From contig JARWKL010000004.1 of the NCBI GenBank assembly GCA_029961685.1, forward strand, positions 24,557,610 through 24,621,609: a DNA stretch of 64,000 nt, written 5' to 3'. The position numbers and the translations under genes are program-made. Each line of letters begins with the position of its first letter. Positions within the stretch are counted from its first letter, which is position 1. The notes under the pieces are model-generated. The model did not search any database. It saw nothing but the letters and a program-made list of their open reading frames with translations, and was not told the origin of the DNA. Source of the DNA: Aristolochia californica. Taxonomy: Eukaryota > Streptophyta > Magnoliopsida > Piperales > Aristolochiaceae. Below are positions 38,393 to 56,125 of the stretch, in pieces.

Positions 38393-38638
38393 TCAAATTT
38401 GCAGCATTTTTTTTCTTTTCATCTTCTTTGGTACTCTGCAGTTTTTCTTTATGTCACTTAACTTGCTAAAATTCCAGCACTCCACATTCCTTCTAAATTT
38501 GGACTTTCTTCTTCCATTCCTTAATTTCCTGCTACTATTGTCCTTGTTGGAATTTCTCTCGAAGTTCATACCCCTAGTATCGACACTTAAGGCAAAATTA
38601 GATGTCAACGATTCTTCGGAGTCCTTTCTACGAACTTC
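38393..38638 (-). pseudogene. Copia D gag C-terminus (zinc knuckle)
   Basis: It continues from 42866 across F1: RRKDSEESLTSNFALSVDTR, then a basic stretch and a degraded knuckle CWNFSKLSDIKKNC (family CxxCxxxGHxxxxC). The smooth join DTIFVGEV | RRKDSEES with one copy of ACTTC proves F1 is an insertion. Confidence 0.83.
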
Positions 38639-39050
38639 TATTATGAACTCAATAGTAGGCCGAGTCATGCAGAGTCCCCATGGCTGAGTCAAATACTTCG
38701 GCTGAGTCAGTTACTTAGTCATTAAGTTACTTAGTTTTTAAGTTATGTAGTTAGTAGATTAAATCAATTACTTAGTCATTAAGTTTATTTACATTAAATG
38801 CCATGGAGGGGCAAATCTATAATTTTCTCTTGAACCTTATTGATGTGATCCTTATTTAGGGGTGCAAGAAATGGAAAAGAGACATGTATGAGTTTAGGTT
38901 AAACAAAGGGTTTTGATTTCTCCTAAACGAGCTCAGGGGTGTGCGTTCTCTTTAACGAATCTAGGGTTTTCAAGCTTCCCTTTGGCTTGATTTTATTTTC
39001 TTCTCTTCTTCTTCCCTATGAATCGCTTTGTTAGATTCAGGATCTTAACA
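38639..39050 (+). repeat. 5' LTR of F1
   Basis: TATTATGAACTCAATAG (TG mutated to TA) to GGATCTTAACA, 412 bp. It includes the GCTGAGTCA repeats (GGCTGAGTCAGTTACTTAGTCATTAAG) that mark this LTR clan. Confidence 0.9.
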
Positions 39051-39053
39051 ATA

Positions 39054-39065
39054 TGGTATCAGAGT
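39054..39065 (+). promoter_or_regulatory. Primer-binding site of F1
   Basis: TGGTATCAGAGT, eleven of twelve bases of the initiator tRNA-Met complement, three bases after the LTR. Confidence 0.88.
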
Positions 39066-39071
39066 GGGAAC

Positions 39072-39662
39072 ACAATGAGTGATGCTTTGTCCCAAGAAAA
39101 AATGGCTTGCCATACTCGATCTATCGGGAGAAATACACACATGGGTTTTAGCATTGCGTAATGGAATGTGTGAGTCTTGCACTATAATGTCTGAGACATT
39201 GCTATAAATTGAGAAACATCACGTTATGGCCTCAGAGGGGAAGTCGCCGCTCTAGAATATGAACAGTTGATGCCCATCATTCGAGCTCAAATTGTGTCAG
39301 AACAGCCAGATTTGAGTTCGACCTCAAATCTCCCCTGTTCATGAAAACCTAACCTTCTTCCAGAAATTGAGACTAGAAATTTCCGAGCAGAGGAACCCCA
39401 TGCTAAATTTTGGCCACGATTTGTTGCTGCTAACTGTCGAAAATAGGCCAGGCTCTCCTTCGTCATGAGGCATAAATATCTTCTACCCAGCATTTTTTAT
39501 TGTCCTTCGTTAGAGGTTTATGCGAACAAGAAGGTAAAAAAATCCAGAGATTTTCATTTCGAAGTGGAAATTGTTACCGTGGCAGAAGGAGAGTCTGAAG
39601 CAAGCTTGAGAGCAAGAGCACATGCGAAGAGCCTCAGGACTCGAGACTTTCCTTGGGGTTGA
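39072..39662 (+). pseudogene. Shared gag-leader segment of F1
   Basis: An ATG soon after the primer site (39078) and broken frames follow. Three blocks match F2 on its own strand: EVAALEYEQLMPII with EQPDL (39240-39310), LPEIETRNFRAEEPH (39355-39405) and VKKSRDFHFEVEIV (39535-39576). F2 has KVAAPNDDQLLPII, ELEKENFRVEKPH and VKKSRDFDFKVEIV at 54020-53690. J carries a full gag at this position, so I read it as gag-derived plus a segment acquired before the family diverged. The function is unknown. Confidence 0.7.
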
Positions 39663-40078
39663 TTGATTTTGTTACCCATGGAGACCGTCATGTCCTTGAT
39701 GTCGGCACACCCGATTTGTTCAGAAAATACAAGCTCAACAGGCTCATCAGCCAGGGACCCTTCACCTAGGTTTACTATGCCAAGTCCGTCGTTGATGGCT
39801 CAATGTTTGTCGTCAAGGTCATCGGATGGAAGAGCTTGGATGAGATCACCATGGTTCCAAGAATCCTCTGTGAGGTCTCTGTCATTCAGGACTGGGATAT
39901 TGACTTTGCTTTCCAAAATAATCAGAGATTGAATTTCAAAAGCCCTATTGGCTTCAAGGGTACCTCATATCGCGACTTATATGAAGCAATAGTGAAGCTC
40001 CTTCCCAAACTTCTAGGACACCCGCCGGTTTCTCTTATTCCAGCTGACTGTAGAGTGGATAAAAAATTGGAGAAATGA
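39663..40078 (+). pseudogene. Captured protein-kinase N-lobe, CIPK-like
   Basis: From about 39710 the frame reads DLFRKYKLNRLISQGPFT, a stop, then VYYAKSVVDGSMFVVKVIG and an EPRI.CEVS-like VPRILCEVSVI. This is the glycine-rich loop, the Val before the ATP-binding Lys, and the Lys of the VKVI strand. The wording is closest to CBL-interacting (SnRK3) kinases. Catalytic loop and activation loop are absent. The following 39895-40078 (DWDIDFAFQNNQRL...) belongs to something I cannot name. The kinase call is moderately sure, the subfamily less so. Confidence 0.55.
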
Positions 40079-40440
40079 TGTCGATAGTAGGATGAACAGC
40101 CAAGAATTAAAGAATTCCATAAAATTACAAATTGCATTTGGGTTTCTGGCGGTGAATGTTTTCTCAAAGGTAAAATCTGATTCAGTTATCGGCTATGTGT
40201 GGGTCTTTGGATTAGGACTCCTGGGAAGCTTTCTATTTCAATTTTTTTTTTTTTTTTTTTTTGACAATACATGCTTCTCAAGAGACTGGGTTTTAGTGAT
40301 GGAGAATATCCCTGGTTTTTCTGTATATCGAGGTCTATACGAGTTTGCACAATATGCCTTTTACTGGAAATTTTGTTGGAATTTCTGGAATGTGTTGGAG
40401 GGATCTGAATGACGTTGATAATGGGATCAAAGAAGTTTTA
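40079..40440 (+). other. F1 segment of unknown origin with a T19 run
   Basis: A partly open frame (40092-40410) with hydrophobic stretches and a poly-T run at 40242-40260. I recognise no family. It may be captured coding sequence or UTR. Confidence 0.5.
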
Positions 40441-40449
40441 ACTATTATG

Positions 40450-40584
40450 TTTGATGTGGGTTCTTGGATTAGGAGGATTGCAGGGTATGCTTAGAACAAG
40501 CAAAGAGGCTTATGGCTAGTTGAAGGTGTTAAGCTAGATGGGGTTGTAGTTGTTTCAGTCCTCTCAACTTGTGCCCAATTAAAG
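40450..40584 (+). pseudogene. Captured PPR-repeat fragment
   Basis: Around a stop at 40492 the frame reads RRIAGYA, stop, NKQRGLW, then [21 protein letters not shown]. This matches the AGYAQN...GV.PD..T..SVLSACAQL pattern of plant PPR proteins of the PLS class, which bind organellar RNA. It is about 40 codons and runs in frame into the H+-PPase segment. Short, but the pattern is distinctive. Confidence 0.6.
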
Positions 40585-41289
40585 GTGTACATACTTGTTA
40601 ATTGTTTCAATGAGGCTATTGCTGTCAGCAATTTTGTCAGATTTAGCCTTGCTGCCATGTATGGCATTGCAGTGGCAGCTTTTGGAATGTTGTACACCAT
40701 TGCTACTGGTGTGGCCATTGATGCATATTGTCCCATTAGTAACAACGCCGGAGGTATTGCTGAGATGGCTGACATGAGTCACAGGATATGCGAAATAATT
40801 GATGCCCTTGAGGCCGCTGGAACCACTACTACAGCTATTGGAAGAGGGTTTGCCTTTGGTTCAGCCGCCTTGGTGTCTTTGGCTCTCTTTGGTGCCTTTG
40901 TGAGCCAAATAACTGATGCCCTTGAGGCCACTGGAACCACTACTGCTGCTATTGGAAGGGGGTTTGCCATTGGTTCAGCCACCCTGGTGTGTTTGACTCT
41001 CTTTGGTGCCTTTGTGAGCTGTGCGGAAATTTCCACAGTGGATGTTTTGACACCTAAAGTTTTCATTGGGTTGATTGTGGGTGCAATGCTTCCATACTGG
41101 TTCTTTGCCATGACCATGAAGAGTGTGGGAAATTCAATTCTTATTCTCTGGAATTTCACTTCCCTTTCTAAGACACTAGAGAAGCTACAGGAAAGAAGGA
41201 AAAGCGAGCTAAAACTAATGGTGTTCGAAGATTCTATGAAGCAAAAATTGCAAGAGCTGCAGAAACGGCTAGGGAAGAAACATACGTAG
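40495..41289 (+). CDS. Chimeric ORF: PPR fragment + H+-PPase + AIP2 start
   Basis: An open frame of about 264 codons between stops at 40492 and 41287. It passes from PPR-like sequence (to about 40584) through a H+-pyrophosphatase segment (about 40610-41137) into the N-terminal part of AIP2 (about 41155-41286). The first ATG in frame is at 40657, inside the H+-PPase part (AAMYGIAV). If made, the product would have several membrane segments fused to a coiled-coil-like charged tail ([15 protein letters not shown]). I see no dedicated promoter; transcription would come from the F1 LTR. Whether it is expressed is unknown. Confidence 0.5.
40610..41137 (+). pseudogene. Captured vacuolar H+-pyrophosphatase fragment
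   Basis: The frame gives [86 protein letters not shown] and AMTMKSVG. This is the central to C-terminal membrane core of plant type I H+-PPases, which pump protons into the vacuole using pyrophosphate. Only ~140 distinct codons of about 765 are present, and the pyrophosphate-binding motifs are missing. A 114-bp in-frame tandem duplication repeats the DALEA...GAFVS segment. No intron-like interruption is seen. Confidence 0.85.
40801..41028 (+). repeat. 114-bp in-frame tandem duplication in the H+-PPase segment
   Basis: GATGCCCTTGAGGCC... begins at 40801 and again at 40915. The copies differ at about ten bases, so the duplication is not recent. Thirty-eight codons are repeated without frame change. 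Confidence 0.9.
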
Positions 41290-42236
41290 CCGTGTCTTTG
41301 ATCCAATCCATTCTTCTTGAAACCTATTCTTATGCTTCTTCCTCACTTTGTAAATGCATTTATTCTATAATTTTTTGGGCTGCAACGATCTTGCAGACTA
41401 GATATATAGCACCAGGATTCTGGCATGCAGGTTTGAGGCTTTTTGAAGATGCATAACGCATTTTTGTTGAGTCTTCACTGAAGGAGCACCTAGGAGCATG
41501 CACTGCTAGGGCTCTTGAACATTTAGATGAGGTAGAGAATGGACCCCGGGCCTCAGACTCCACCAAATACCCCGTACAAAGATTCTAGATTTCTATTTGA
41601 AGGACATTTAACAGTTGGACCTGAGCCCCGGCCACCTGCATGGCTTGTGGCATAGAATTTACTTACAACTCTTGGTACCACACAAGAGCAGGTTAGTGCT
41701 TCTAAGTCTTCTCAATCCCATGGGGAGAGTAATAGAACAAACAATTTTGGTCCTGATGCTGCTTCTGCAATGCTGGAAAAGTTGGTAAATACTAAGCTAG
41801 AAATCAGTGGTTTGCAGGACCTTGATTCTGTCATTGAAGCTTCACTACAGGAAATTGGTGTTGACAAAAGAAGCCACCTCCAGCCTCAAAAGAGATGGTT
41901 GCAAGGCTTCCAATCATCACAATCACACATGAAATCTGGGTGAAGCTAGGGAGAGAGACAAAATGTGCAGTTTGTAGGGAGAACTTGGTTATAGATGACA
42001 AGATGCAGGAGTTGCCTTGCAAGCTTTTATTTCACCCAAATTGCCTCAAGCCATGGCTGGATGAGCATAATTCGTGCCCGATCTGTAGGCATGAGCAACA
42101 AATAGATGACCATGCATATGAGAGCTGGAAAGAACGTGAAAAGGAGGCTGAAGCAGAAAGGAAAGGTGCAACAAATGCACTCCGAGGTGGAGAATATATG
42201 TTGAATACTATTGGTGCTTCTACCATAGTAGAGTAG
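41150..42236 (+). pseudogene. AIP2-like: Captured AIP2-type RING-H2 E3 ubiquitin ligase
   Basis: Nearly the whole protein is represented. N-terminal [20 protein letters not shown] continues the chimeric ORF to 41289. 41290-41890 follows with stops (APGFWHAGLRLFEDA, SLKEHLGACTARALEHLDEV). 41895-42236 is an open C-terminal ORF with RLPIITITHEI, the RING-H2 finger and HAYESWKEREKEAEAERKGA. In the RING the ligands are CAVC, PC, then L where the family has H (PCKHTFH has become PCKLLFH), H, C and CPIC, so one zinc ligand is lost. AIP2 targets the transcription factor ABI3 in Arabidopsis. This copy should be inactive as a ligase. Confidence 0.88.
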
Positions 42237-42299
42237 TTGGATAAAAAAATTGTTAATTTTCAGAGGAAACTTTTTGCCAATTGGGGGAAAGTGTGGAGG

Positions 42300-42477
42300 A
42301 TTTCAGATACCGAAATCTCTCCTTCCGGGGTGTTACATTGCAGCGATTACACCGCTTGTGTTATCCAGTGGGTTGACGTGGATGCCACAGATGCTACTTG
42401 GGGAGATATGGCAACGTTTTGGCAAGCATCCCTACCTTCAAGCTTGAGGACAAGCTCTTTCTCCAGGAGGGGTGTAA
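42300..42477 (+). pseudogene. F1 chromodomain remnant and polyprotein tail
   Basis: Frames near 42340-42478 read CVIQWVDVDATDATWGDMAT and then, in another frame, FKLEDKLFLQEG, matching the end of element A (ATWEQLANF...ELEDKLFLQGG). It shows that F1 descends from a chromovirus and kept only the final pol codons and the polypurine tract. Confidence 0.8.
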
Positions 42478-42860
42478 TGTTAGCAGGCCGAGTCATTTAA
42501 AGACGCCATGGCTGAGTCAATTACTTTGGCTGAGTCAATTACTTAGTCATTAAGTTACTTAGTTAGTAAGTTAAGTCAATTACTTAGTCATTAAGTTTAT
42601 TTACATTAAATTCCGTGGAGGGGCAATCTGTAATTTTCTCTTGAACATTGTTGACATGATCACTATTTAGGGTGTAAGGAATGGAAAAGAGACAAGTCTG
42701 AATTTAGGTTAAGCAGAGGGTTTTGAGTTCTCCTAAACGAGCTCAGGGGTGTGCGTTCTCCTTAACGAACCGAGGGTTTTCAAGCTTCCCTTTGGCTTGA
42801 TTTTCTTTTCTTTTCTTCTTCTTCCCTACTAATCGTTGTGTTAGATCCGGGATCATAACA
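42478..42860 (+). repeat. 3' LTR of F1
   Basis: It starts TGTTAGCAGGCCGAGTC and ends GGATCATAACA, 383 bp. It lacks ~12 bp near its start compared with the F2 LTR (TGTTATGGACTCAATAGCAGG). Confidence 0.9.
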
Positions 42861-42865
42861 ACTTC

Positions 42866-51580: not shown

Positions 51581-51959
51581 TGTTACGGTCCCAGATCTCA
51601 CAAAGCGATTCATAGGGGAGAAGATGAAGGAAGAAGAAAATAAAGTCGAAGGGAAGCTTGAGACCCTAGGTTCATTGACGAGACCGCACATCCCTCAGCT
51701 CATTTAGGAGAAACTCAAAAATCCTTTGTTTAACCTAAAATCAAGACTTCTCTTTCCCATTCCTTTCACCCTTAAGTAGGGTTCAAGAGTACAAAATTAA
51801 AAATATGCCCCTCCACGACATTCAACTTGAAAAGTAAATAAAATTAATGACTTAAATTAATAACTAAGTAACTTAACAACTAAGTAACTGACTCAGCCAA
51901 AGTAATTGACTCAGCCACGTCGCCTCTGAATGACTCGGCCTGCTATTGAGTCCATAACA
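51581..51959 (-). repeat. 3' LTR of F2
   Basis: 379 bp; minus orientation TGTTATGGACTCAATAGCAGG...GGGACCGTAACA. Confidence 0.92.
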
Positions 51960-52156
51960 TTACTCCCTCCCTGGAGAAATAGCTTGTGCTCAAGTTCAAT
52001 GGTAGGGTAGGCTTGGCGGAGGGTCTCCACATCCTCCTCTAGTCCAGCTGTGTCATCTGTGTCATCTGCTGGGAGATTTTGTTCCTCATCTTGTTTGATG
52101 TTGTGAATATTATGATGTTGCTCGTCTGCAGAAAGTTGGTGGATGTCATCTTCCAC
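51960..52156 (-). pseudogene. F2 polyprotein tail
   Basis: The minus frame ends AYPTIELEHKLFLQGGSNV and runs into the LTR. It matches the last codons of A and F1. Upstream, an acidic segment (DTDDTAGLEEDVETL) joins it to the captured PPR sequence. Confidence 0.8.
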
Positions 52157-52198
52157 AGCTTGGGAAAACCATTTTTACATGCTTCCATGCTTGTTGGA

Positions 52199-52540
52199 CT
52201 ATGTAGCAGCATGTGGGTCAAGATTAGCATAAAGATTAGCCATGCACCAAAAGTGTGCAAACGTGGGACTTATGTCAGATATAGTCAACATTTCATTACA
52301 ATACTTGTGGCCCTTTGATATTAATCCAGCATGAATATAAGCACAAAACATACCAATAAAGGTAATTTCCTCGATCAACACGTTTTCTTTTGATGTTGCC
52401 CTGTCACCCATTTTGTTACTAGAACTTTGTCCCACCATTGTTGCAAGACATCCATGAATACAGTGTTCCAACATCATTGTATTCCAAAAATTTAAATTCC
52501 TCTGTGAGATTTGGTAAAAAACTCTTCTAGTATCATCCAC
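52199..52540 (-). pseudogene. Captured PPR C-terminal segment
   Basis: 113 codons: DDTRRVFYQISQRNLNFWNT, MLEHCIHG, then ITFIGMFCAYIHAGLISKGH and SPTFAHFWCMANLYANL. These are successive PPR motifs and the start of an E-type domain of a plant PLS-class PPR protein (organellar RNA editing or processing). Upstream 52541-52827 continues the same protein with stops (FETAQRLVCRVYDVATQFHD). Confidence 0.82.
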
Positions 52541-52827
52541 CTAAAGTGCCTTGACAGGCATGTCATGAAACTGGGTAGCAACATCATACACCCTACATAC
52601 CAGTCGTTGGGCAGTTTCAAATTCAGACACCAGTCCAATTTTTGAAATCCAAATAGGATTCAACTAATTCATAATTACTTCTGTCTGCCCTAGTTCTTCC
52701 AGTGTAGCATCTCTTTGTTTTACATAAACTACTGCCCTAGGATCCTCCAATTTGCATTACCATAGGTGTTCCATGGCGGTAGAACTTTCTGGTCCATGCT
52801 ATCAAGTACAAAATGAACAATCTTGAT

Positions 52828-53253
52828 TTATCCACATTTGGCATACATGTCAATAAGACATGTTACATCAAACACCTCATATAACAAACCAGTCCGTATA
52901 GTTCTTCCAGGAATTACCATTCCTTGTTGCATAGATCCTACATGGGATAAAGCAGGGAGAAGGCTTATATTAGTACCCTGATCTACTAGTATGCCACCAG
53001 ACTTACCCAGAACATGGAAATGCTTAATTGCCTCATCAGGAAGCCTATTTCGTGCAAAATCAGTGAGGATAGTGTTCCATGAAATCACATATTTTTGGCA
53101 GAATCCGACTATCATGGTGTGCCAAGTACCCACATCTCGAAATTGCATTTCATCAATTGTTTGGTAAGCACCAGGAATATCCCCGAACTTAGAATACATA
53201 TGCATCAAAGAAGTGCCCACGAACACATCTCCACACATTTCATAATCGTCCAC
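52828..53253 (-). pseudogene. Captured PPR-repeat segment
   Basis: 141 codons of recognisable PPR repeats: DVFVGTSLMHMYSKFGDIPG, MIVGFCQKYVISWNTIL, PDEAIKHFHVLGKSGG and FDVTCLIDMYAKCG. The tandem ~35-residue pattern gives four repeat units. One unit is irregular (DVGTWHTMIVGFCQKYVISW), as if two repeats were fused by deletion. Confidence 0.87.
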
Positions 53254-53280
53254 AATAGAATTCCCAGAACCCCCACCTGG

Positions 53281-53607
53281 TCAAAGAATTTCTACAAACA
53301 GTGTTCGAGCGGACACTACAACTCCACAGGCTGAATACATGTGACCCGAAATATCCCCATCGCGAATTTCTAACACTAGAGCCAGAACTCCTTCCAAATC
53401 ACCAGCGGAAGCCAATATATCAACAAACAACACATAATGTTCTAGCTTATGCGAGTAACCTTTCTGGTTCACAGTGCAACTAAACACCCTCAACACCATT
53501 GTAGAGTTTTTTCTTACAAAGTCGAGGGACATGAGAATGGACAAAACAAAATTCGGAGAAAATCTGCTAAAAAACTGACCACAAAATTCGATCAAGTCGG
53601 TTTCCAA
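53281..53607 (-). pseudogene. Captured segment with PPR-like features
   Basis: 108 codons; MVLRVFSCTVNQKGYSHKLE and YVLFVDILASAGDLEGVLAL look like the start of a P-class PPR protein, distinct from the segments downstream. The end, around ARTLFVEIL, stop, PGGGSGN, resembles MSFLQPGVSSGN in element E. A second PPR source gene is possible. Confidence 0.6.
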
Positions 53608-53639
53608 CTTGGAGGTGGAGACCGAGAGTGAGAGGCTGA

Positions 53640-54258
53640 AACACGATGGTCACAATTTCAGATTGAAATCCACTAGTCCAGACTTCTCATCTTCTGCCAA
53701 GGCAACTATTTCCACTTTGAAATCAAAATCTCTAGATTTTTTTACCTTTCTTTTTGCATAAACCGCTAACAGAGGAAAATTGAAGCTGCTGGGTAGAAAA
53801 TTTTTATGCCCGATGATGAAGTAGAGCCTGACCTATTGCCGATGGTGAACAGCAGCAACATGGGGCTTCTCCACTCGAAAATTTTCCTTCTCCAATTCTG
53901 GGAGAAGTTTTGGTTGCTGTGAACAGGGGAGATTTGAGGTCAAACCCAAATCTGGCTGTTTTGATGCGATTTGAGGTCAAATGATGGGCAGCAACTGGTC
54001 ATCGTTTGGAGCGGCAACCTTCCCCTCTAACTCAACACGATGCTTCTCGGTTTCGGCCAATCTCAAGTCTTCCATCCTTCAATCTAGGGGTGGATTTCTT
54101 CCAAACATCATATCCCACATCCTACTGATTTGTTGGTCAATTCTTTTCATTCATGCCCCACTTTTTGTCAGCGTTGTTGCATTTTCTGCCCCCATTGCTG
54201 CCAATCGTACCTCTCTAGCAATTGGTTGCAGCTTGTCACTCCTGGACGAATCACCCAT
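53640..54258 (-). pseudogene. Shared gag-leader segment of F2
   Basis: It starts at ATG 54258 (MGDSS), just after the LTR and primer region, like MGDT of J. A gag-like helical segment follows (RIDQQISRMWDMMFGR), then KVAAPNDDQLLPII, ELEKENFRVEKPH and VKKSRDFDFKVEIV shared with F1. Confidence 0.72.
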
Positions 54259-54270
54259 GTTCAAGATTTT

Positions 54271-54675
54271 ATACCAAGTTGTTATGATTCCAGATCTCAC
54301 ATGGCGATTCACAAGGGGAGAAGATGAAGGAAGAAGAAAATCAAGACAAAGGGAAGCTTGAGACCCTAGGTTCGTTGGGGAGAACGCACACCCTTAAGCT
54401 CATTTAGGAGAACTCAAAAATCCTTTGTTTAACCTAGAATCAAGACTTCTCTTTCCCATTAATTTAACCCCTTAAGTAGGGTTCAAGAGTACAAAATTAT
54501 AGAACTGCCCCTCCATGGCATTCAATTTGAAAAGTAAACAAACTTAATGACTTAACTTAATAACTAAGTAACTGAAAAACTAAGTAACTTAACGACTAAG
54601 TAACTGACTCAGCCAAAGTAATTGACATTGCCACATCGCCTTTGAATGACTCAACCAGCTATTGAGTTCATAATA
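54271..54675 (-). repeat. 5' LTR and primer-site remnant of F2
   Basis: LTR 54280-54675 (396 bp; outer TG mutated to TA). Next to it the minus strand reads AACTTGGTAT and then diverges, so the primer site is partly deleted. Confidence 0.9.
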
Positions 54676-55670: not shown

Positions 55671-56125
55671 TTTTATGGACTCAAGAGTAGGCCGAGTCAT
55701 TCAAAGGCGCTGCGGTTGAGTCATTTAGTTATTCAGTTTATTGTTTTTTTTTCATTTTCCTTTTACTTCATTTTATTTCAATTGAAGAGTTTATATGCCA
55801 TAGGGGCATTATTGTAATTCTTTCTCTTGAACTCTTGTTAGCGCCAACCCTACTTAGGGGGGAAAGAGGAATGGGAAAAGACAATTCTGATTTTAGCCTA
55901 AATAGGGATTTAGAGTTCTCCTCAACGAGCTCTAGGGTTGGAGTTATCCTCAATGAACCCAAAGGTTCAGGTTCCCTTACGAATTTTATTTTCTTCTCTT
56001 TTCTTCTTGCTCTTTTCCCTTTTCCAAAACCAAGAGTTACCTTAGCAGTGCAGAACTCGTCCCCAAAACTCTGGATTACCCTTTCCAGTGCCATGTTACA
56101 AGATCCATGACCCAGGAACATAACA
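55671..56125 (+). repeat. 5' LTR of J
   Basis: TTTTATGGACTCAAGAGTAGG (TG mutated to TT) to CCCAGGAACATAACA, 455 bp. Confidence 0.87.

Follow-up and report, generated by a model that had tools for sequence, protein, structure and literature searches.

The capture of host gene sequence by long terminal repeat (LTR) retrotransposons is known from the maize element Bs1, in which pieces of three host genes (an H+-ATPase, a xylan endohydrolase and a beta-1,3-glucanase) have been described (PMC13317346). Captured genes number 672 in rice and 1,343 in sorghum (PMC3726574), and a maize survey listed 425 gene-carrying LTR elements from at least 189 captures, among which, under the conditions employed, none was reported to combine fragments of two or more nuclear genes (Baucom 2009; PMC2774510). 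In pepper, potato and rice, LTR-driven retroduplication copied spliced messenger RNA (mRNA), pepper NLRs mostly via non-autonomous elements, and some LTR elements hold two or three annotated genes, one of which was picked as the retrogene (PMC5664825). The chimeric LTR elements Veju and BARE-2 have been ascribed to template switching (PMC13317346), and transduced genes usually lie in sense (PMC7264820); for the few terms checked, the Aristolochia fimbriata genome paper showed nothing on captured genes (PMC8445822). A literature search, outside which most subscription papers fall, found no title or abstract start on such mosaics in Aristolochia. Here we describe F1, a 4.2-kb element at 38639-42860 (+ strand) of a stretch of 64,000 nucleotides from Aristolochia californica (the window). 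F1 is very probably an LTR retrotransposon, dead and non-autonomous, in which serial template switching put copies of several spliced host mRNAs, joined into a mosaic, in place of gag-pol. Its recognised cargo lies entirely on the + strand, which is the sense of the element, and comprises pieces of four supported donors (a kinase, ABCA7, a vacuolar H+-pyrophosphatase (V-PPase) and AIP2) together with a weak PPR-like stretch.

F1 is structurally complete. Its 5′ LTR (38639-39050, +, 412 bp) and 3′ LTR (42478-42860, +, 383 bp) share 86% identity, with a Kimura two-parameter (K2P) distance of 0.120, and the element is bordered by two identical copies of a target-site duplication (TSD), ACTTC (left 38634-38638, right 42861-42865), exactly as the initial annotation had placed boundaries, repeats and duplication. 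When the flanks are joined with a single TSD copy, the empty site is restored as one 145-aa frame spanning the junction, and the interrupted frame belongs to a copia gag, which Pfam PF14223 recognises (E 3.9e-12) in a reading that includes the junction frame. Because the TSD is exact and the flanks restore one gag frame, F1 is a real, single insertion into copia gag with a 5-bp duplication. Directly 3′ of the 5′ LTR lies the sequence TGGTATCAGAGT (39054-39065, +), which we take to be a primer-binding site of the initiator-Met-tRNA type, so that two LTRs, a TSD and, by this assignment, a primer-binding site of an LTR retrotransposon are all present. The family leader that follows (39066-39600, +) has no long open frame and may hold gag remains. 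At the other end, the cargo is followed by a family 3′ tail with a polypurine tract (42284-42477, +), presumably gypsy-pol-like; a chromodomain had been proposed here, a claim that found no support from Pfam profiles, either in direct searches of the tail or in frame-hopped readings up to E 10. Profiles of reverse transcriptase, RNase H and integrase gave no match in the ten open reading frames of F1 scanned, and the element is thus not autonomous. Terminal-repeat retrotransposons in miniature have very short LTRs and a total length of about 1 kb or less; this class is ruled out by LTRs of 383-412 bp and 4.2 kb overall. At a rate of 1.3e-8, as used elsewhere (PMC5664825) and without calibration for A. 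californica, the LTR distance of 0.120 would correspond to about 4.6 million years.

The origin of the cargo was traced in the A. californica genome (an assembly of 521 contigs totalling 659,574,684 bases, haplotype 1 having been published at 661.6 Mb in 531 scaffolds; PMC11334207). Donor genes were located on three contigs, ABCA7 on C24, AIP2 on C111 and V-PPase on C511 (contigs, loci and predicted proteins carry C, L and P labels throughout). The ABCA7 piece (40119-40453, +) covers donor codons about 441-549 and has its best match in an ABCA7-like protein of A. californica (E 2.1e-43), and the ABC domain PF00005 is present in all nine proteins that the 5′ part of F1 matched. Two introns of the C24 gene fall within the captured stretch; at each of them the neighbouring exons are joined exactly in F1. 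The V-PPase piece (40615-41129, +), correctly recognised in the initial annotation, matches Pfam PF03030 (E 1.2e-52) and a PDB entry (E 2.5e-67) and lacks exactly the one donor intron inside the captured stretch. Among the four V-PPase genes compared, the C511 gene is the closest (91.0 and 93.6% over two exon parts), followed by that on C489 (84.5 and 90.6%). The AIP2 piece (41198-42201, +), now frameshifted, matches P0001 of A. californica (E 5.4e-175, 85%), the protein into which the spliced exons of the C111 gene translate. This gene has five exons, and in F1 these follow one another without any of the four introns, joined precisely at the splice points. The piece runs from about 20 nt of 5′ untranslated region (UTR) through codon 331 of 333, an extent larger than the 'most of' AIP2 claimed earlier, the identity itself being upheld. 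For the three donors that were located, the captured stretches as aligned contain seven introns (ABCA7 2, AIP2 4, V-PPase 1); all seven were removed exactly, which shows that the three pieces derive from spliced mRNA. When donor introns were compared with capture edges, the ABCA7 and V-PPase edges fell mid-exon, and the AIP2 piece stopped two codons short of the stop, with no 3′ poly(A) tail at its end of the kind expected from retroduplication. The proposal of one LTR element with pieces of several unrelated plant genes is therefore established for three donors by exact splice junctions. Protein searches were run in place of blastx, and that the chimera might be one resident gene is ruled out, the segments belonging to unrelated genes on different contigs. 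The four donors first listed omitted ABCA7 and counted the weak PPR call.

The genome search for sister copies returned 16 full-length cargo matches including F1, plus a nearly full one, L024. Each of the 15 other full copies (L009-L023) aligns collinearly with the window across the element and its flanks on either side, over about 9.3-9.9 kb (for L019 in two pieces); for two of the C500 copies the collinearity extends, in pieces, to 26.6-54.5 kb of the window. These copies, found on C329, C500 and the small contig C237, are products of the segmental duplication of a single insertion, and their flanks, shared with F1, rule out separate transpositions. The known full copies of F1 thus arose through segmental duplication and not transposition. 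In the copy tree, 14 of the 16 copies pair across contigs in seven pairs with very short branches (six C329-C500, one C329-C237), which look like alleles on two scaffolds or recent inter-scaffold duplication. In L024 (C329:28803117-28808797), about 5.4 kb of other sequence seems to separate the AIP2 piece into two parts. A further locus, L028, is an older duplicate at the insertion site of F1; its ABCA7 piece contains a 297-bp insertion (L028 4210-4507) with short end repeats and a CAGGA duplication, and similar sequence occurs inside the LTRs of the dispersed locus L025. That this extra stretch is an ABCA7 intron is ruled out by its own duplication and end repeats.

F1, first described as one element, is indeed a single insertion but not a lone oddity, since cargo of the same kind is dispersed through the genome. 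Outside the F1 duplicates, at least 42 AIP2 loci were counted on 14 contigs, a lower bound given that 121 of 401 candidates were scored; the tally was drawn from 125 rows after removal of duplicate-block rows, two multi-exon AIP2 genes, two rows at 37-40% identity and the row C329:28803117, probably the split-off end of L024. All 42 cross at least one donor intron position without an intron and none starts before codon 116. Nine of them were read (L025-L027 and, as 0.9-kb pieces at the 3′ end of AIP2, the six loci L034-L039), and in all nine AIP2 is followed by the family tail and then an LTR (truncated in L037); compared by eye, the 3′ flanks are dissimilar. The TSD of L025 (ATACC) is its own, and this locus joins the AIP2 3′ end to upstream content different from that of F1, some of it PPR-like (PPR_2 at E 4.1e-5, short of the Pfam cut-off); L026 and L027 showed no 5′ LTR within the sequence examined around each. 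ABCA7 pieces occupy 32 further loci on 14 contigs (from 59 rows, minus the C24 gene cluster and the F1 duplicates), 16 of them spanning a donor intron position without the intron, and V-PPase pieces 52 further loci, also on 14 contigs (from 92 rows, minus four multi-exon genes, the F1 duplicates and the secondary rows of one locus), 46 of which, judged from exon rows, do likewise. LTR context was read for nine of the 42 AIP2, two of the 32 ABCA7 (L045 and L046) and none of the 52 V-PPase loci.

Three ABCA7 loci (C2:19593466, C329:35108707 and C329:10415128) have the same edges as F1, at codons 441 and 548-549. L046 (C329, 35.1 Mb) matches F1 39598-40614 at 78.6%, through the kinase piece, a stretch without assigned origin, ABCA7 and the PPR-like sequence, then parts from it at 40614/40615, where the V-PPase of F1 begins, and carries other cargo downstream; its LTR starts in a left flank unlike that of F1, which makes it an independent insertion. 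In L045 (C2) the LTR, the leader and the same ABCA7 piece are present but the kinase is missing, and about 1.9 kb further on lies a V-PPase piece. The same donor edges with different neighbours in independent copies, as expected of a template-switch mosaic, are hence found both in L046 compared with F1 and in L025. Given the AIP2-tail-LTR order in nine of nine loci read and the independent insertion L046 with different cargo, the F1 family did transpose, and F1 is one insertion of a dispersed family with shared, reshuffled cargo modules. As a separate observation, in ten of the 32 dispersed ABCA7 loci a piece that stops at about codon 680 is accompanied by a second that begins at about codon 742-745 (e.g., C68:12111108-12111929 and C46:23324159-23324812), as if one deleted version had been amplified. 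Three NCBI-predicted A. californica proteins, AIP2-like or V-PPase-like (P0020, P0130 and P0035), match family cargo, and P0020 continues into the family tail and LTR. The window itself holds a sister element of the same family (51581-54675, - strand; TSD AAATC) with PPR gene pieces in sense (Pfam PPR, E 3e-12), whose positions 54028-53679 are 77% identical to leader part 39234-39597 of F1 and whose LTR divergence (K2P 0.118) is about that of F1. Further LTR-like stretches of the family lie at 55673-56008 (+) and 62706-62386 (-). No RNA family reached gathering level in the 64-kb window.

The remaining parts of the F1 cargo are described here from 5′ to 3′. The first piece (39722-39886, +) corresponds to residues 11-65 of CIPK23, in the kinase N-lobe (E 0.0023), and falls under the Pfam cut-off for Pkinase (E 0.2); in L028 the same piece is firmer (E 2.3e-6 to PLK4 and 8e-6 to CIPK23), its Pkinase match (E 0.0058) again staying under the cut-off. 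The CIPK identity given in the initial annotation is thus plausible from these matches, the piece not being pinned to one donor gene. The stretch that follows (39887-40117, +), also present in L028 and L046, has no homologue accepted in Pfam, NCBIfam or PDB. Leader and kinase stretch together (39051-40110) are richer in CpG, at about 0.03 per base, than the ABCA7, V-PPase and AIP2 pieces, at 0.013-0.014. Downstream of ABCA7, the stretch 40490-40614 (+), shared with L046 and the A. californica model P0130, was called a PPR fragment; a resemblance to the motif is what we take this assignment to express, and the 43-aa stretch gave no Pfam match in F1. Inside the V-PPase piece, a 114-nt unit is tandemly duplicated (40790-41017, +), with two units in all 16 duplicate loci compared (L009-L024) and one in L028. 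Between V-PPase and AIP2 lie 68 nt without assigned origin (41130-41197, +), common to L028 and the A. californica model P0035 and unmatched to the AIP2 donor, and after AIP2 comes a spacer, likewise without assigned origin (42202-42283, +), which recurs in L025, L027, L036 and L039, partly in L034, L035, L037 and L038, and is absent from L026.

The distances between F1 and its donors suggest an order of capture. They amount to 0.173 (0.125-0.225) for ABCA7, 0.079-0.082 for V-PPase and 0.064 (0.047-0.078) for AIP2, and this contrast is not a rate effect within the element, since the distances between F1 and L028 are about equal for the three pieces (0.094, 0.097 and 0.090, respectively). The simplest reading of these values would be that the capture of ABCA7 preceded those of V-PPase and AIP2, the 5′ half of F1 probably having been assembled first. 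The AIP2-donor distance of 0.064 is about half of the LTR-LTR distance of F1, as expected if capture shortly preceded insertion; in other family members it ranges from 0.042 (L026) to 0.097 (L027).

As to coding capacity, the cargo frames of F1 are broken by frameshifts and stops. The substitutions in its AIP2 piece are spread evenly over the codon positions (18, 21 and 21) with a nonsynonymous to synonymous (non/syn) ratio of 2.33, compared with 2.5 expected at random, and the motif CKHLFH of the donor P0001 reads CKLLFH in F1, the changed position being, as we take it, a RING-H2 ligand. The sequence thus presents F1 as a dead element with decayed cargo, likely without function.

The proposed mechanism has to be weighed against several others. 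Under serial template switching, host mRNAs would have been packaged together with element RNA into particles whose proteins an autonomous relative may have supplied, the reverse transcriptase would have switched template repeatedly between them during minus-strand synthesis, and later copies would have exchanged modules by the same route. Sense orientation and spliced junctions would equally result from serial read-through transduction, in which family members beside or inside genes give rise to spliced read-through transcripts that are then packaged, and Bs1 has been described as three transductions (PMC13317346). This alternative we consider unlikely, since the three located donors are on different contigs, the edges of the ABCA7 and V-PPase pieces fall within exons and not at splice sites, and an AIP2 span from the 5′ UTR to just before the stop fits the copying of a free mRNA better than read-through. 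Spliced inserts would also be produced by long interspersed nuclear elements (LINEs) if processed copies had been inserted successively into an LTR element, and a T-run at 40239-40261 might be taken as a trace of this. The run, being inside ABCA7 codons and much shorter in L028, looks like slippage, the cargo edges show (by eye only) neither poly(A) nor duplication, and the recognised pieces are all in sense, which makes a LINE origin very improbable.

Slightly less credible still is capture at the DNA level by a Helitron, a Pack-type element or nested insertion with later framing by LTRs; such elements, as we understand them, often carry several gene fragments, but the seven exactly absent introns contradict this for ABCA7, V-PPase and AIP2, and the same cargo-tail-LTR order recurs at other insertions. 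Hardly more can be said for a functional chimeric gene of the sort claimed for Bs1, to which we give the same very low probability: an open RING frame (41865-42236), the NCBI-predicted proteins on related copies (P0020, P0130 and P0035) and an L026 AIP2 piece with fewer amino-acid changes than random (non/syn 1.3) speak in its favor, while in F1 the frameshifts, the stops, a substitution pattern that appears near random with no sign of coding constraint and the leucine in place of the presumed RING-H2 histidine speak against it.

Serial template switching is preferred over these alternatives, and the insertion, the spliced sources, the sense orientation, the fixed junctions and the sharing of modules are observed; several points nevertheless weigh against this account. 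Template switching itself is inferred and not directly seen, no junction having been shown with microhomology. No autonomous partner with the F1 LTR was identified, no search having been aimed at one, and the kinase and PPR-like pieces are without a located donor gene. As regards the order of captures, the age gap of ABCA7 could come from a faster donor or another donor paralogue, and the distance between F1 and L028 is higher in the kinase piece and the stretch 39887-40117 (0.165) and in the leader (0.130), the former possibly due to CpG richness. As regards decay, non/syn is lower in the relatives (L028 2.1, L025 1.82, L027 1.8 and L026 1.3, the last from 23 substitutions) than the 2.5-2.57 expected; these counts include the donor's own constrained branch and for this reason are read neither as selection nor as evidence of neutrality. 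A wider proposal, which we hold only tentatively and at somewhat less than even likelihood, is that A. californica hosts a non-autonomous LTR lineage for which copying host mRNA would be a habit and not an accident: spliced cDNA modules would be added, kept at fixed junctions and traded between family members by template switching, a process to which the genome would owe dozens of mosaics at dispersed sites and a large share of its intronless AIP2, ABCA7 and V-PPase fragments.

F1 and its relatives bear on how LTR elements pick up and reshuffle host genes. Since most described cases involve a single donor, as the maize survey illustrates (PMC2774510), arguments on how LTR elements capture genes have had few junctions to draw on. 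In the A. californica genome, the donor genes can be studied side by side with exact splice junctions, with junctions that recur and with alternative combinations of pieces, so that template switching, transduction and DNA capture become distinguishable by counting. The genome also carries a warning, in that what is predicted there as a gene, AIP2-like or V-PPase-like for example, can be the cargo of a retroelement. Compared with known systems, the gene-carrying LTR elements of maize hold host gene fragments as F1 does, none of them being reported, under the conditions of that survey, to draw on more than one nuclear gene (PMC2774510), and the retroduplicates of pepper, potato and rice share with F1 the capture of spliced mRNA, mosaics not being described in the available part of that report (PMC5664825). 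In Veju and BARE-2 the partner was another element or unknown DNA (PMC13317346), whereas in F1 the partners are several host mRNAs. F1 and Bs1 are alike in kind, both being LTR elements that carry pieces of several host genes (in F1 ABCA7, V-PPase, AIP2 and the kinase). Unlike Bs1, with its three genes, F1 has four supported donors and a PPR-like stretch, its modules recur in other combinations in independent insertions, and its cargo shows no sign of function; the kind of element is thus known, while the number of donors, the reshuffled modules and the genomic scale look unusual.

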